Of a stretch of DNA of 64,000 nucleotides, positions 3,453-46,860 are shown one piece after another. This DNA comes from Candidatus Zixiibacteriota bacterium (GTDB lineage Bacteria; Zixibacteria; MSB-5A5; GN15; FEB-12), in contig JANQPI010000020.1 of assembly GCA_028289585.1 (NCBI GenBank), positions 284,039 to 348,038 on the forward strand, read 5' to 3'. The notes beneath the pieces were generated by a model. It did not search any database and was not told where the DNA came from. It saw only the letters and a list, made by a program, of their open reading frames with translations. A program made the position numbers and the translations under genes. The first letter of the stretch is position 1. Every line of letters starts with the position of its first letter.

Positions 3453-3821
3453 CTAGGGCTGAGGGCGCGCGTAGCGGTAGACGATCTCGCCCGGCTGCAC
3501 CATCTGGTACTGCGTTCGAGCAATGAACTCAATGTAGCCGGCGTCGGTGAGCAGCAGATCACGGCGACGTTCGGCATCGATCAATTCTGCCGTCTGCCGC
3601 ATATTGGCATCTATCAACGCCTGCTTCTCCATCGAAAGTCGCACGATATTCGGAATCGAGTAATCGCCTGAGATCAGTGACCAGGCGAAGGCGACCCCCA
3701 CTATCCAGCCGGTCCAGCGGAGCACACGCCGTCGCTGACGCGAATCCGTGGTCGCGATTTTCCGGAGCCAGTCTCCGGCGGGGGCGAGAATCGATGGGCG
3801 TTGGGTTCGGCGAATCGGCAT
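3453..3821 (-). CDS. FtsB/DivIC-like septum formation protein
   Basis: 122 aa small bitopic membrane protein: basic N-terminus, one transmembrane helix (WTGWIVGVAFAWSLISG, about residues 41-57), then a periplasmic coiled coil (EKQALIDANMRQTAELIDAE). The C-terminus GYIEFIARTQYQMVQPGEIV matches the conserved tail of FtsB/DivIC, which bridges FtsL and FtsQ in the divisome. The open frame extends upstream across the tRNA-Leu gene to 4028; that extension is rejected, and ATG 3819-3821 is chosen although no clear ribosome binding site is seen. Assignment to FtsB versus DivIC is not resolved. Confidence 0.75.
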   Translation of the reverse strand: MPIRRTQRPSILAPAGDWLRKIATTDSRQRRRVLRWTGWIVGVAFAWSLISGDYSIPNIVRLSMEKQALIDANMRQTAELIDAERRRDLLLTDAGYIEFIARTQYQMVQPGEIVYRYARPQP

Positions 3822-7349: not shown

Positions 7350-7583
7350 GTCATCCCCCCGAAAACCGGAATTCAGACACTCGTCATCCCCGCGCAGGCG
7401 GGGATCCAGTCTCGTTCTTCGAATGGAGCAGGTGGGGCCTGTTCTGAGCCTGCCGAAGGGACACCTGCCGCCCACGAGAGTGTCCCTCGCCGTGTCCCCC
7501 CTCGACTCCGCTCGGGGTGACTTAGGTAGAAGCTTGGGATGACTTGGGTAGAAACTTGTGGTGACTTGGGTGGAGACTCGATA
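7350..7583. repeat. Mosaic block of palindromic repeats between clpX and umuD
   Basis: No gene is seen between 7275 and 7669. The stretch contains two copies of a GTCATCCC...GGATCCAG palindrome (7350-7376 and 7383-7409), a GCCTGCCG...CACGAG module (about 7439-7482), a palindrome with CTCGACTCCGCTCGGGG (7498-7521), and three 22-bp direct repeats beginning TGACTTRGGT (7518-7539, 7540-7561, 7562-7583). The first three module types recur elsewhere in the window. Confidence 0.8.
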
Positions 7584-14443: not shown

Positions 14444-14486
14444 CCCCACCCTTCGGGTGGGGTAAGGGGCAGGCCGGAGGCCTGCC
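14444..14486. repeat. Two strong hairpins after the methyltransferase
   Basis: CCCCACCC-TTC-GGGTGGGG (14444-14462) and GGCAGGCC-GGA-GGCCTGCC (14468-14486). Both recur together at 44292-44334, so they belong to a dispersed repeat family. The first may also act as a terminator. Confidence 0.75.
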
Positions 14487-14517
14487 GCCCACTCTCACTG
14501 GAAGTCTCCGCGCTTGT

Positions 14518-14577
14518 GTCATCCCGGCGAAAGCCGGGATCCAGCTATCCGTCATCTCCGCGCAGGCGGGGATCCAG
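14518..14577. repeat. Two tandem palindromic repeats overlapping the hldD 3' end
   Basis: Copy 1 at 14518-14544 (arms TCCCGGC/GCCGGGA) and copy 2 at 14551-14577 (arms CCGC/GCGG), both of the GTCATC...GATCCAG family. Copy 2 contains the hldD stop codon and last seven sense codons. Confidence 0.8.
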
Positions 14578-41350: not shown

Positions 41351-41561
41351 CGCGTCAGTGACTTGCCACCCACCTGATTCGTCAGCCTCGTGACACGTCA
41401 CTTTCCTAACTTGTCTGGCCTTTGACAGAACAGAGAACGGGTAACGCCCGCCTGCGGCCCACTTGCCCCCGCATGCGGCGCCACCTATCATCAGCGAAAC
41501 ACCGAGACTGTCGCCCGTTGCCAATCGCACGAGCCGGTCGTATCGCTATGAGGAGTGGGAA

Positions 41562-43187
41562 ATGTCAGCTTTCCGTGTGCCAACCCCGACCAATGAACCT
41601 GTTCGCTCCTACGCCCCCGGCACTGCCGACCGGCACGAGATTCTTGATGCGCTCGAAGAACTGAAAAGTAAACCGATCGACATTCCGCTGATCATCAACG
41701 GTAAAGCGGTCACGACCGCGAAGAAGTTCAAGATCACCGCACCGCATAATCATAAACTCCTGCTCGGTTCCTTCTGCTACGGTGGTGAGAAAGAGATCAA
41801 GGCGGCAATCGACGGTGCGGTTGCGGCGCAAGCCGAATGGGCCGCGATGCCCTGGGAACACCGTGCGGGGATCTTTCTGAAAGCAGCTGACCTGCTGGCG
41901 ACCAAGTACCGCTATATCATCAACGCCGCGGCAATGCTCGCGCACTCGAAGAATATCTTCCAGGCGGAGATCGACGCGGCCTGCGAGTTGATCGACTTCT
42001 GGCGCTACAACGTCTGGTACACCGAACAGCTCTACAGCATCCAGCCCGACAACCAACCGGGTATCTGGAATCGCACGGATCACCGACCGCTCGAAGGATT
42101 TATCGCGGCAATCGCACCGTTTAACTTCATCTCGATCAACGCCAACCTCCCCACCGCCCCGGCAATCGTTGGCAATGTCGCCGTCTGGAAACCGTCGGAC
42201 ACGGCGGCGTACACGTCGTATTGGCTGATGAAAATTCTGCAGGAAGCCGGGCTCCCGAATGGTGTCGTTAATCTCATCTTTGCCGATGGTCCCCAGTTCG
42301 GGAAGCTCGTCCTTGCCGATCCGCGGCTTGCGGGTGTGCATTTCACCGGATCGACCAAGACGTTCCAATACATCCAGAAGACGATTGGCACGAACATCGA
42401 GAAGTACAAATCGTACCCGCGCGTTGTTGGCGAAACCGGCGGTAAGGATTTCATCGTCGCGCACAAGTCGGCCGACCCGGAAGCACTGACGACGGCGATC
42501 GTTCGTGGGGCGTTCGAATATCAGGGCCAGAAGTGCTCAGCGGCGAGTCGGTGTTACATCCCGTCATCGGTCTGGAAGAAGATTGAGAAGAAACTCGTCG
42601 CTCAGGTGCGAGAACTTCAGGTTGGCGTGCCCGAGGAGTTCAGCAACTTCGTCAATGCCGTCATCGATCAACGGGCGTTCAAGAAGATCAGCGAGTATAT
42701 CGACTTCGCTAAGAAGTCGAAGGACGCGACAGTCATCGCTGGCGGCGAATACGACAAGTCCGAGGGGCTGTTCATTCAGCCGACGATTATCAAAACGACC
42801 AAACCGAATTTCAAGACGATGGAAGAAGAGATTTTCGGACCGGTTGTCACAATCTACGTCTATCCCGACCGCGAGTGGGCAAAGACACTCAAGCTGGTCG
42901 ATGAAACGTCACCGTACGCATTAACCGGCGCGGTGTTCGCGCAGGATCGCGCGGCGGTTGTCGAGGCAGAATCGTATCTCCGTCAGGCGGCGGGCAATTT
43001 CTATATCAACGACAAGCCGACCGGCGCGGTCGTTGGTCAGCAGCCCTTTGGGGGAGCGCGAGCGAGCGGCACGAACGATAAGGCGGGTGGGATTCAGAAT
43101 ATGATTCGCTGGATTTCGCCGCGGTCGATTAAGGAGACATTCAATCCCCCGACCGCCTACGAGTACCCGTTCATGCAGGACACGTAG
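41562..43187 (+). CDS. L-glutamate gamma-semialdehyde (P5C) dehydrogenase
   Basis: 541 aa aldehyde dehydrogenase oxidising P5C/glutamate semialdehyde to glutamate. Catalytic Cys in GQKCSAASRCY, general-base Glu in VGETGGKDF, IAPFNF near the substrate/NAD site, and EEIFGPV late in the chain. The single-domain length matches the stand-alone form, without a proline dehydrogenase fusion. AGGAG lies six bases before ATG 41562. No proline dehydrogenase gene is in the window. Confidence 0.93.
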   Translation: MSAFRVPTPTNEPVRSYAPGTADRHEILDALEELKSKPIDIPLIINGKAVTTAKKFKITAPHNHKLLLGSFCYGGEKEIKAAIDGAVAAQAEWAAMPWEHRAGIFLKAADLLATKYRYIINAAAMLAHSKNIFQAEIDAACELIDFWRYNVWYTEQLYSIQPDNQPGIWNRTDHRPLEGFIAAIAPFNFISINANLPTAPAIVGNVAVWKPSDTAAYTSYWLMKILQEAGLPNGVVNLIFADGPQFGKLVLADPRLAGVHFTGSTKTFQYIQKTIGTNIEKYKSYPRVVGETGGKDFIVAHKSADPEALTTAIVRGAFEYQGQKCSAASRCYIPSSVWKKIEKKLVAQVRELQVGVPEEFSNFVNAVIDQRAFKKISEYIDFAKKSKDATVIAGGEYDKSEGLFIQPTIIKTTKPNFKTMEEEIFGPVVTIYVYPDREWAKTLKLVDETSPYALTGAVFAQDRAAVVEAESYLRQAAGNFYINDKPTGAVVGQQPFGGARASGTNDKAGGIQNMIRWISPRSIKETFNPPTAYEYPFMQDT

Positions 43188-43230: not shown

Positions 43231-43259
43231 GTATGCGGTGGGTGTCCTCACCTGCCACG
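43231..43259 (+). repeat. Left flanking repeat of the orphan gene
   Basis: GTATGCGGTG followed by GGTGTCCTCACCTGCC, matching 44178-44210 in direct orientation with a 4-nt deletion (the 33-bp copy carries an extra GCAG-type insertion) and a few substitutions. Confidence 0.6.
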
Positions 43260-43333
43260 CTGCTTTCCCGCCGAGCACACAGAACAGATCGTAATGAGAG
43301 CGTGGTCAAGTAACGAATGCTGGGAGGAGACAA

Positions 43334-44164
43334 TTGACGTGGCTGGGTCGCCGCTTCCGTAATCTTCGAGCAAGAATCGAAGTATACTTGCAAGCTCGTC
43401 GTGAGAGATCGCAAAGCAGGCATTATGACGGACACGCTCTGTTTCCTAGCTTGGGTGTCTCACCGAATATCCCTGAGAAAGATGCTTGGTCGAGATTCCC
43501 TGAGAAGTCCTACCTGGACCTAACCTGGCACAACTGGGACGATTTTGACGACTGGCTTGACTTCTGGGATGAATCGCTGGTTGACAGTATTACAGCCGTC
43601 GTAAATCCGACTCACCTGCTAGTCGTCGCCGGAGTAATTCGCGATCCGTTGGCAGTTTCCGACGCGGAGCTCATGAAACTAGCATCAGGCTCTTGGGGAC
43701 TGAACGATGGAGTATTAGTTAGTACTCCTCGAGAGTACCGGTTTGATTCGATCTACAAGTTGTACTCATGCAATTCGAGGGAAATTCCGGATCTTCTTCT
43801 CTTGCCTCCCAGTTTCTATCCAAGTTTCGCCAGATGGAATGCAGGTGAAAACGATGATCCACGCGCAGTTGAAGTGGGCTATGTTGGGTGTCATATGCTC
43901 TACCTGGAAGAATCTGATCAGATTCACTCTACGAATGACCTGGTGACAATCTTGGAAACAACGGAGAACGAAGCCTTCGTTTTGGGCAATCGATTAATCA
44001 TGCACTTCGGTGTATGGCTGGAGGAACACGGTGGTAACTTCACGCTATATGATCTCTCGCTGAGCGACAAACTCTTCAGTCATCTAGCCACACACTTCGG
44101 GCCGAGGGAGAACGTCCACTGGAAGTTCGGCCCAATATCGAATGATGTTGGATGGTTTGAATAG
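43334..44164 (+). CDS. Hypothetical protein, probably horizontally acquired
   Basis: 276 aa from TTG 43334, chosen because GGGAGGAG lies 4-5 nt upstream and no ATG occurs before residue 114. Basic N-terminal 32 residues (RRFRNLRARIEVYLQARRER), then an acidic, Trp-rich soluble domain (LTWHNWDDFDDWLDFWDES). No transmembrane helix. Visibly lower GC and different codon use than its neighbours, and bracketed by copies of the same 29-33-bp repeat. I do not recognise the family; a cargo or defence/immunity gene is possible but unproven. Confidence 0.65.
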   Translation: MTWLGRRFRNLRARIEVYLQARRERSQSRHYDGHALFPSLGVSPNIPEKDAWSRFPEKSYLDLTWHNWDDFDDWLDFWDESLVDSITAVVNPTHLLVVAGVIRDPLAVSDAELMKLASGSWGLNDGVLVSTPREYRFDSIYKLYSCNSREIPDLLLLPPSFYPSFARWNAGENDDPRAVEVGYVGCHMLYLEESDQIHSTNDLVTILETTENEAFVLGNRLIMHFGVWLEEHGGNFTLYDLSLSDKLFSHLATHFGPRENVHWKFGPISNDVGWFE

Positions 44165-44177
44165 TGAGGAGAGTTGA

Positions 44178-44554
44178 GTATGTGGCCGGCAGGTGTCCTC
44201 ACCTGCCGCGTAGACAATACAGTGAACACTGGATCCCGGCTTTCGCCGGGATGACGATCGGTCGACGCTGTCACCGTGGCGTCTCGTGGGCGGCAGGCCC
44301 CCGGCCTGCCCCTAGCCCCACCCGAAGGGTGGGGTACAGACTTTGGGACCCTCGCTTACTCGAAGTCACCCCGAGCGGAGTCGAGATGCGACGGCACGTG
44401 CCTGTAACTTTGCGGTCATGTCTCGACCAGGCTCGACATGACAAGTAGCACCGTTTCTTGGGCGGCAGGTGTCCCTTCGACTGGCCCAAGACAGGTCCCA
44501 CCTGTCACTGAAACATTGCAATGAATACTGGATCTCCGCCTACGCGGGGATGAC
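44178..44554. repeat. Mosaic repeat island between the orphan gene and pcrA
   Basis: No gene between 44165 and 44565. Modules in order: GGCAGGTG-TCCT-CACCTGCC inside the right flanking repeat (44178-44210), a CTGGATCCC...GATGAC palindrome (44229-44255), GGCAGGCC-CCC-GGCCTGCC (44292-44310), CCCCACCC-GAA-GGGTGGGG (44316-44334), GTCACCCCGAGCGGAGTCGA (44365-44384), a GGGCGGCAGGTGTCCC module (44460 onward) and a second CTGGATC...GATGAC copy (44528-44554). It is the densest repeat cluster in the window. Confidence 0.8.
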
Positions 44555-44565
44555 GGACAACGCCG

Positions 44566-46773
44566 CTACCCAATCACTTTCAGGTTGGCGTAGCGGGCCA
44601 TCAGTTTCTTGACGCCCAACCCGGCGAAGTTGACCTCGATCCGCAACGAATCGCCGAACCCATCGACTGTCATGATCCGACCCTGCCCGAACGTCTTGTG
44701 CTGCACAATGCGACCCGGTTGTAGGACTTCGTCTTCTTCGTAGACGTAGGTCCTTCCCGACGCCGCCGCAGGTTGCGCTGCGCGCCGTCCGCCATTGCCA
44801 AACAGCGACGCCTGCGCTGGGCGCGACGATGCGTCGTACGAATAGACTTTGCGCGTGCGAAGCTCCAACCGATCGAGCAGTGCCTCGGGGATCTCTTTGA
44901 TAAACTGCGAAGGAATCGTTTCGACATCGGCGAACCGTCCGCGAACAGCAGCCGAGAAGAGGTGCAGGTTCTGCCGCGCGCGTGTCGCGGCGACATAGAA
45001 CAGCCGACGCTCCTCCTCAAGATTCATCGGATCATCGGTCTGCCGTTGCATCGGAAAGAGCCCCTGTTCTAGGCCCACGACATAGACCGTGTCGTATTCC
45101 AACCCCTTTGCCGAGTGGATTGTCATCATCGACAACCGTTCCTCTTTCTCCTTATCGAGATCATCGAGATCGGTGTAGAGCGCGATTTCGGAAAGGTAGT
45201 CGGGGAGGTGCGCGTCGGGATGCGCGGTCATGAACTCCGCTGCTCCATCGACGAGTGCTTCGAGGTTTTCGATTCGTGCTTCAGCGGTGTGCGGTTCCTT
45301 GTTCTGCCAGTAGTCGACGTACTTGAGGTCTTTGATCAGTTGCTCGACCATCAGATCGACCGGCTGCGTGTCGACCATCGCGCGATACGATTCGATCAAC
45401 TCGACAAACGCCGCAATCCGCTTGGCTTTGCCCGCCAGCGACGGATACGCTCCGGCGTTCGCACAGATACCGTAGTATGAGTTCTCTTCATCGACAGCGA
45501 GCGCATGGATTTCGTCGACGGTCGTCTTACCAATCCCGCGATTCGGTGTACCGATGATGCGGTCGAACGAAACGTCGTCGGCCGCATTGGCAATCAGTTG
45601 CAGATAGGCGAGAATGTCACGAATCTCCGCCCGGTCATAGAACGCGGTTCCGCCAACGACTTTGTAGGCAATGTTGCGGCGACGGAGTTCCTCCTCAAAC
45701 GGCCGTGACTGTGCGTTGGTGCGATAGAGGATGACCTGATTGCGAAGCGACGGTGCCCCCGCGGTCTGCACGCGATCGACAACCTCTTTCGCCTCCTCTT
45801 GCGCGTTATCGACCAGGATCAGGTCGATACGATCCCCCTCGCCAGCATTGGTCCACAGCTCTTTCGGTTTTCGCTGGGAGTTGTTGGCGATAACCGCCGA
45901 CGCCGCTCTGAGAATTGTGCCGGTCGATCGATAGTTCTGTTCTAGTTTGATGATCCTGGCGCCGGGGAAGTCGCGTTCGAATTCGAGAATGTTGCGGATG
46001 TCGGCACCGCGCCAGGCGTAGATCGACTGATCCTCATCTCCGACAACACAGATATTTTGATCCGGGTTGAGCAGATGTCGCAGCATGAGATACTGGACAT
46101 GGTTCGTATCCTGGTACTCATCGACCATCAGATAGCGAAAGCGTTGCTGCCAGCGCGAGGCAACATCGGGATGATCCCGCAGCAAATAGACCGTTTCGCA
46201 AATCAGGTCATCAAAGTCCATCGCACCGATCGATCGGAGCCGTCGCTGGTAGAGCGTATAGAGTTCGGCGCGGCGGGATTCAAAGTAGTTGTTCGCTTTC
46301 GACGCGTATGCCTCGGGCGTAATCAACTGGGTTTTGATATCGGATATCTTCCGCAGTTCCGCCTTGGGCGGGAATTGTCCTTCGGGATAGCCAAGACGCC
46401 GCACGCAGTCTTTGAGTAACGCCTGTGAACTTGATGTATCAAAGACCTGAAAACTTGACGAATACCCGATTGTCTTATGCTCACGCCGGAGCAGTTTGAG
46501 GCCAAGCGAGTGGAACGTGCTGATCCACAGATTGGGGAGTGCACCGAGGAGCGCGCCGACGCGTTCGCCCATTTCGTTGGCCGCTTTGTTGGTAAACGTG
46601 ACCGCCAAGAGTTCGTGCGGTGCCGCCTTGCGCGTGGCCAGGATATAGGCAAGCCGCTGGGTAAGCACGCGGGTCTTCCCCGACCCGGCACCGGCGATGA
46701 CAAGCAAGGGACCGTCGGTAGTCGTGACCGCTTCCGCCTGAGGCGGATTGAGATTCTTGATTAACGCTTCCAT
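44566..46773 (-). CDS. pcrA: PcrA/UvrD-family DNA helicase
   Basis: 735 aa SF1A 3'-5' helicase for nucleotide-excision and replication repair. Q motif LNPPQAEAV, Walker A GAGSGKT (28-34), DEYQDTN, GDEDQSIYAWRGAD, QNYRS, MTIHSAKGLEY and VAATRAR are all present. The C-terminal Tudor-like RNA-polymerase-contacting region (VQHKTFGQGRIMTVDG) is typical of PcrA/UvrD. ATG 46771-46773 is preferred over GTG 46785. Assignment of pcrA versus uvrD is a matter of naming. Confidence 0.95.
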   Translation of the reverse strand: MEALIKNLNPPQAEAVTTTDGPLLVIAGAGSGKTRVLTQRLAYILATRKAAPHELLAVTFTNKAANEMGERVGALLGALPNLWISTFHSLGLKLLRREHKTIGYSSSFQVFDTSSSQALLKDCVRRLGYPEGQFPPKAELRKISDIKTQLITPEAYASKANNYFESRRAELYTLYQRRLRSIGAMDFDDLICETVYLLRDHPDVASRWQQRFRYLMVDEYQDTNHVQYLMLRHLLNPDQNICVVGDEDQSIYAWRGADIRNILEFERDFPGARIIKLEQNYRSTGTILRAASAVIANNSQRKPKELWTNAGEGDRIDLILVDNAQEEAKEVVDRVQTAGAPSLRNQVILYRTNAQSRPFEEELRRRNIAYKVVGGTAFYDRAEIRDILAYLQLIANAADDVSFDRIIGTPNRGIGKTTVDEIHALAVDEENSYYGICANAGAYPSLAGKAKRIAAFVELIESYRAMVDTQPVDLMVEQLIKDLKYVDYWQNKEPHTAEARIENLEALVDGAAEFMTAHPDAHLPDYLSEIALYTDLDDLDKEKEERLSMMTIHSAKGLEYDTVYVVGLEQGLFPMQRQTDDPMNLEEERRLFYVAATRARQNLHLFSAAVRGRFADVETIPSQFIKEIPEALLDRLELRTRKVYSYDASSRPAQASLFGNGGRRAAQPAAASGRTYVYEEDEVLQPGRIVQHKTFGQGRIMTVDGFGDSLRIEVNFAGLGVKKLMARYANLKVIG

Positions 46774-46860
46774 GAGATACCGCACTATACGGCGACGTAC
46801 ACGGAGACGGCAACTAGTGTCCCGAGGACAAACTGAGAATGTGAAAAACGGTGGCTGCTA

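Follow-up and report, generated by a model that had tools for sequence, protein, structure and literature searches.

A 276-aa gene of no nameable family lies between two direct repeats in the window, the stretch of 64,000 nucleotides of a Candidatus Zixiibacteriota genome analysed here (G000:C21:284039-348038). A reading made from the sequence alone had likened this arrangement to a cargo gene inserted by recombination or mobilisation at the repeats. The question is what the repeats are, and whether they have anything to do with the presence of the gene. On the account that we consider likely, taken as a whole, the repeats on either side of the gene are REP elements headed by GTGG, of a family spread by RAYT transposases (Y1, IS200/IS605-related). 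The orphan would be specific to this lineage and probably acquired, and would occupy a convergent intergenic site that is variable and where the REPs were deposited independently.

Table 1. Features in and around the bracketed region (positions are those of the window)
Feature	Position	Strand	Remarks
Left neighbour, aldehyde dehydrogenase (Aldedh)	41463..43187	+	PF00171, E 3e-99
REP copy 1, degraded: GGTGGGTG-TCCT-CACCTGCC	43237..43256	+	two wobble positions in stem; head not GTGG
Ribosome-binding site, purine-rich GGGAGGAG	43322..43329	+	read directly from the sequence
Orphan ORF, 276 aa	43334..44164	+	TTG start; stop TAG at 44162-44164
REP copy 2, perfect palindrome GGCAGGTG-TCCT-CACCTGCC	44188..44207	+	GTGGCC directly before
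CGTC-type palindromic repeat	44228..44256	-	
Sister-type REP, GTGGGC + GGCAGGCC-CCC-GGCCTGCC	44292..44310	+	
Second CGTC-type palindromic repeat	44525..44555	-	
Right neighbour, UvrD/PcrA helicase, convergent	44566..46785	-	PF00580, PF13361, PF21196

The orphan gene and its product

The orphan is a real, AT-richer gene to which no biochemical function can be assigned. The description given by the sequence-only reading (a TTG start behind a strong ribosome site, lower GC, atypical codon use and an acidic, Trp-rich product of no nameable family) agrees with our measurements. The frame is intact over 276 codons, and the ORF is present as a single copy within its own genome. Against 348 ORFs with 120 codons or more from a 464-kb sample of the genome, its GC content of 0.495 is the seventh lowest (mean 0.571, sd 0.028), its GC3 the 13th lowest and its codon score the 32nd lowest. 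The codon score in its own frame (0.043) is clearly the best, with negative values in the other five frames. Since this signal is positive in the gene's own frame alone, though weak, the ORF looks both coding and atypical.

The protein contains 11 Trp residues, or 4.0% versus a mean of 1.4%, a share reached by 11 of the 348 ORFs, and its pI is 4.98. Averaged over 19 residues, hydropathy reaches 1.41 at most and hence there is no clear membrane segment; the product is predicted to be soluble and acidic. Single-sequence AlphaFold modelling gave an unusable result (pLDDT 33.8). Searches of Pfam, PADLOC, PHROGs, NCBIfam and PDB sequences at E up to 10 returned no match, and a 25-residue match to the first RAYT of the genome (E 0.09-0.17) was taken as chance. 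No promoter-like site was found in a promoter and terminator scan, which likewise gave nothing terminator-like at the REPs, and nothing matched in Rfam.

A dispersed hairpin family and its transposases

The repeats had been placed at 43231-43259 and 44178-44210. What stands of this is a 24-nt core that is common to both at 88% (43236-43259 versus 44187-44210). The 'GTATGYGG' stretch that was included with it is out of register between the copies, aligns only with a 4-nt gap, and does not accompany the family at its other genomic places. Beyond the earlier description, the repeat is palindromic (GGCAGGTG-TCCT-CACCTGCC, headed by GTGG) and belongs to a dispersed genomic family of 16. The two window copies are in direct orientation, both on the + strand and 951 bp apart, with copy 1 about 50 nt 3' of the dehydrogenase stop and copy 2 about 25 nt 3' of the ORF stop. 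When folded as DNA, the copy 2 palindrome has a z of -4.4, and copy 1 is weaker (z = -1.8). Elsewhere in the window, further CGTC-type palindromes lie at 7377-7409 and 14468-14577, and a sister REP at 14468-14486.

According to PMC6006769, a REP has GTAG or GTGG as its head, followed after 0-2 nt by a stem of 7-20 paired nt with a loop of 2-5. Copy 2 follows these rules with a GTGG+CC head, a stem of 8 and a loop of 4, and the GTGG+GC of the sister copy fits the head rule, which the head of copy 1 fails. Within the genome, the 16-nt core occurs 16 times at no more than one mismatch, as compared to 0 for a reversed-pattern control. Of these strict copies, 15 of 16 lie outside the ORFs called at 120 codons or more, and the lone exception overlaps a high-GC opposite-strand ORF judged to be spurious; REP positions tend to be downstream of genes according to PMC3733652. 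The family is thus repeated and extragenic, at an abundance of 16 that is below the usual one, put at more than 100 copies per genome in PMC2817692.

All 16 strict copies fall on two contigs (C16 and C21) that make up 36% of the assembly, with zero on the similarly large C20 and C23; sister stems (GGCAGGCC-CCC-GGCCTGCC and others) are also found on C18, C20 and C44. The REPs are accompanied by CGTC-type palindromes, of which there are 24 copies at up to two mismatches, and they are grouped as a triple 99-bp tandem, as inverted pairs and as direct pairs. REP pairs within 1 kb number 10, versus about 0.08 expected under uniform scatter (calculated by hand). Such clustering characterises the family in general and is not peculiar to the window gene. 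At G000:C21:475448-475666 (L021:3449-3667), a composite array consists of three head-to-tail units, 99 bp apart, each with a CGTC-type palindrome and a REP. On the same contig, at about 110454-111724, a 201-aa ORF that has no Pfam family is flanked on each side by a direct duplication of about 175 bp with REP and CGTC-type repeats (L019:2454-2630 and 3548-3724).

Three genes of this genome match PF01797, the Y1 transposase family. One of them, a RAYT gene at C16:218451-218984 whose product has an HIH of the HUH type and a tyrosine motif YIHENP, is located between inverted REP copies at 218411(+) and 218988(-), and these are the same repeat as in the window. A second RAYT gene is 44% identical to the first, and a sister REP follows 7 nt after its end. 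Upstream of the first RAYT, a degenerate REP (L020:1409-1428) and the RAYT-upstream REP enclose a 245-aa ORF at L020:1659-2396 (C16:217658-218395), which has a GC of 0.468 and no Pfam family.

With the first RAYT protein as query, matches at E up to 1e-15 were obtained in 72 of 132 phylum genomes. Among 30 fetched phylum RAYT loci, 16 have a GTG-headed hairpin of this design as an inverted pair (+ upstream and - downstream, within 200 nt), 4 have only the downstream copy, 1 has only the upstream copy, and 9 lack both under the strict pattern, which also misses the upstream RAYT copy of our own genome, whose stem begins with GACA. At least one correctly oriented copy is therefore present at 21 of the 30 loci, while any 8-bp hairpin occurs in 6 of 200 random 210-nt genome segments. 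The heads across these loci are gtgg (28), gtgc (12), gtga (5) and other (5). The REPtron descriptions in PMC3733652, PMC2817692, PMC6006769 and PMC8266576, including the GTGG head, match this RAYT/REP arrangement.

The RAYT/REP basis is evident from the hairpin design, the intergenic dispersal, the inverted pair of the same repeat around a RAYT gene and the same arrangement in relatives. Because the hairpin repeat is scattered between genes here and is of a known transposase-associated class, the bracket is mostly ordinary.

The origin of the gene and of its bracket

We looked for relatives of the orphan ORF in 131 other phylum genomes and, separately, in 97 other relatives, and found none in either set. 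Tblastn against plasmids and phages (E up to 1) found none, and peptide-pattern scans of the genome and viral contigs, which are sensitive to close relatives only, also yielded no relative. No donor was found in the searches made.

The site is framed by the dehydrogenase, which we take to be 1-pyrroline-5-carboxylate dehydrogenase-like, and uvrD. With E limited to 1e-100, 45 of the 54 genomes of the family have the former and 48 the latter (our own genome counted), and the two are convergent within a few kb in 1 of the 53 others, G008, in tables read by eye; since many family genomes are fragmented, synteny may be missed in this count. Among named sequences, the best matches of the dehydrogenase reach only about 60% identity and come from mixed groups (Acidobacteriota, Zixiibacteriota and others), and hence do not point to one phylum. 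Tblastn of 58 such named dehydrogenase loci gave no match for a uvrD beside the dehydrogenase. In G008, the gap is 2.0 kb long and contains one ORF of 272 aa and one of 153 aa, both on the opposite strand and unrelated to the orphan, and a REP of the same design. A clean empty site with one repeat copy was not seen, the sole syntenic relative being G008 with its other genes. Given that only G008 keeps the neighbours together, with different genes between them, the space behind uvrD is variable. In another genome, G036, the ORF immediately behind uvrD is Y1 transposase-like (C87; L142:2980-3474).

The low GC, the atypical codons, the lack of a family, the absence from 131 phylum genomes and the variable syntenic site together point to an acquired or lineage-specific gene, and horizontal acquisition is probable on this sequence evidence. 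That part of the sequence-only reading which saw an inserted gene is supported, whereas the part that saw the repeats as its limits is not: REPs occur at other intergenic places as well, the pair is direct and not inverted, and copy 1 is degraded.

We envisage that a RAYT nicks the single-stranded hairpin near its head, in a putative head-dependent cleavage, and transfers the REP to nearby intergenic sites. One REP would have been deposited behind the dehydrogenase gene and another, separately, behind the orphan gene. The latter would have landed in the variable convergent intergenic site. Its translation would start from a ribosome site of its own, and its mRNA would carry at the 3' end the hairpin that copy 2 forms. 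Several findings count against this account, namely the low REP number (16 versus the usual >100) and its confinement to two contigs, the 9 of 30 RAYT loci without a correctly oriented REP under the strict pattern, and the single-ORF REP pairs described below, four here and a fifth in G015, which mobilisation of cargo would also give.

Alternatively, the gene may be vertically inherited and fast-evolving, its low GC reflecting relaxed constraint. This is consistent with an intact gene that has a good ribosome site and, with one genome of the genus among those listed in the relative searches and no second one, a recent common history is not traceable. However, vertical descent has to be reconciled with the lack of any trace in the 97 and 131 genomes and with a syntenic site in G008 that holds other genes, and we regard it as unlikely.

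Less probable still is an entry of the gene by homologous recombination between REP copies or inside a REP cluster, in which case the repeats would be landing homology and not mobile ends. Repeats on the scale of recombination do occur here, as the REP pair at C21:110600 and 111694 lies inside the direct duplication of about 175 bp around the 201-aa ORF. In the window, however, all that the two copies share in register is 24 nt at 88%, which is short for homologous recombination.

A further possibility is that a RAYT excises and re-inserts the single-stranded stretch between two direct REPs, with the orphan gene as passenger. In four cases in the genome, a single ORF lies between two adjacent REPs; these ORFs are a RAYT gene, a DinB/DUF1572 gene and two that have no Pfam family, the 201-aa one and that of the window. 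In another genus, a direct REP pair 923 bp apart (G015:C327; L065:3021-3959) has a 223-aa ORF inside with a GC of 0.468 and, again, no Pfam family. Furthermore, genes with a GC of 0.50 or less are in excess among REP-flanking genes (3/20 versus 7/297 in the background, one-sided p = 0.019; loci L109-L111 left out of the count). This statistic includes the window gene, which prompted the question and without which the count is 2/19, and a rank test for a GC shift of REP-flanking genes is not significant (p = 0.13). The REP-bracketed gene products show no homology to one another beyond the two RAYTs, transposase units have inverted REPs while the window pair is direct with a headless copy 1, and REPtrons are unable to self-propagate according to PMC3733652. 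In the 400 kb of G056 covered, there are 5 REPs, 2 of them inside called ORFs, and no bracketed gene, the REPs being too few to weigh either way. We therefore hold it to be very improbable that the orphan is such a passenger, and equally so that direct REP pairs about 1 kb apart are the ends of RAYT-mobilisable single-gene cassettes, through which low-GC orphans would reach variable intergenic sites in this phylum. Were a REP pair to mobilise cargo, domesticated RAYT transposases would have a role in gene transfer beyond the REPtron descriptions cited here.

Finally, a chance open frame or decayed gene, as might be suspected from the missing homologues, the codon score of rank 32 among 348 and the single-sequence fold (pLDDT 34), is highly implausible against 276 open codons at a GC of 0.495 (a chance of the order of 1e-6 per start, by hand), a codon signal in its own frame only and a ribosome site.

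With independent REP deposition beside a probably acquired gene as the preferred reading, the striking bracket is accounted for by mobile hairpins of a known kind.

Comparison with known repeat and mobile systems

Integron cassettes are superficially alike, in that a single gene without a recognised promoter is followed by a palindrome in direct repeat. The attC core motif of integrons is GTTRRRY, however, and by eye there is no such core at either repeat site. IS200/IS605 elements have the Y1_Tnp transposase domain of the same superfamily; unlike them, the window gene has no such transposase adjoining it, and the inverted arrangement of the RAYT units, with REPs at both ends as expected of a mobile unit, is absent there.

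The GTCATCCCCGCG...CGGGGATCCAG palindromes of the window resemble CGTC-type repeats in their CGTC end, paired stem and CCA-like tail, but here they join REPs in composite arrays. CGTC-type palindromic repeats are not known to have a dedicated transposase.

GTAG/GTGG-headed REPs with their RAYT (REPtrons) share with the present system the head tetranucleotide, the 8-bp stem, the short loop, the intergenic position 3' of genes and the inverted REP pair around a PF01797 transposase gene. They differ in that the heads here are GTGG or GTGC/GTGA, the copy number is low, stems beginning with GGCAG are common to the phylum, and the direct pair of the window flanks a non-transposase gene. A GTG-headed REP/RAYT system thus occurs across this phylum.
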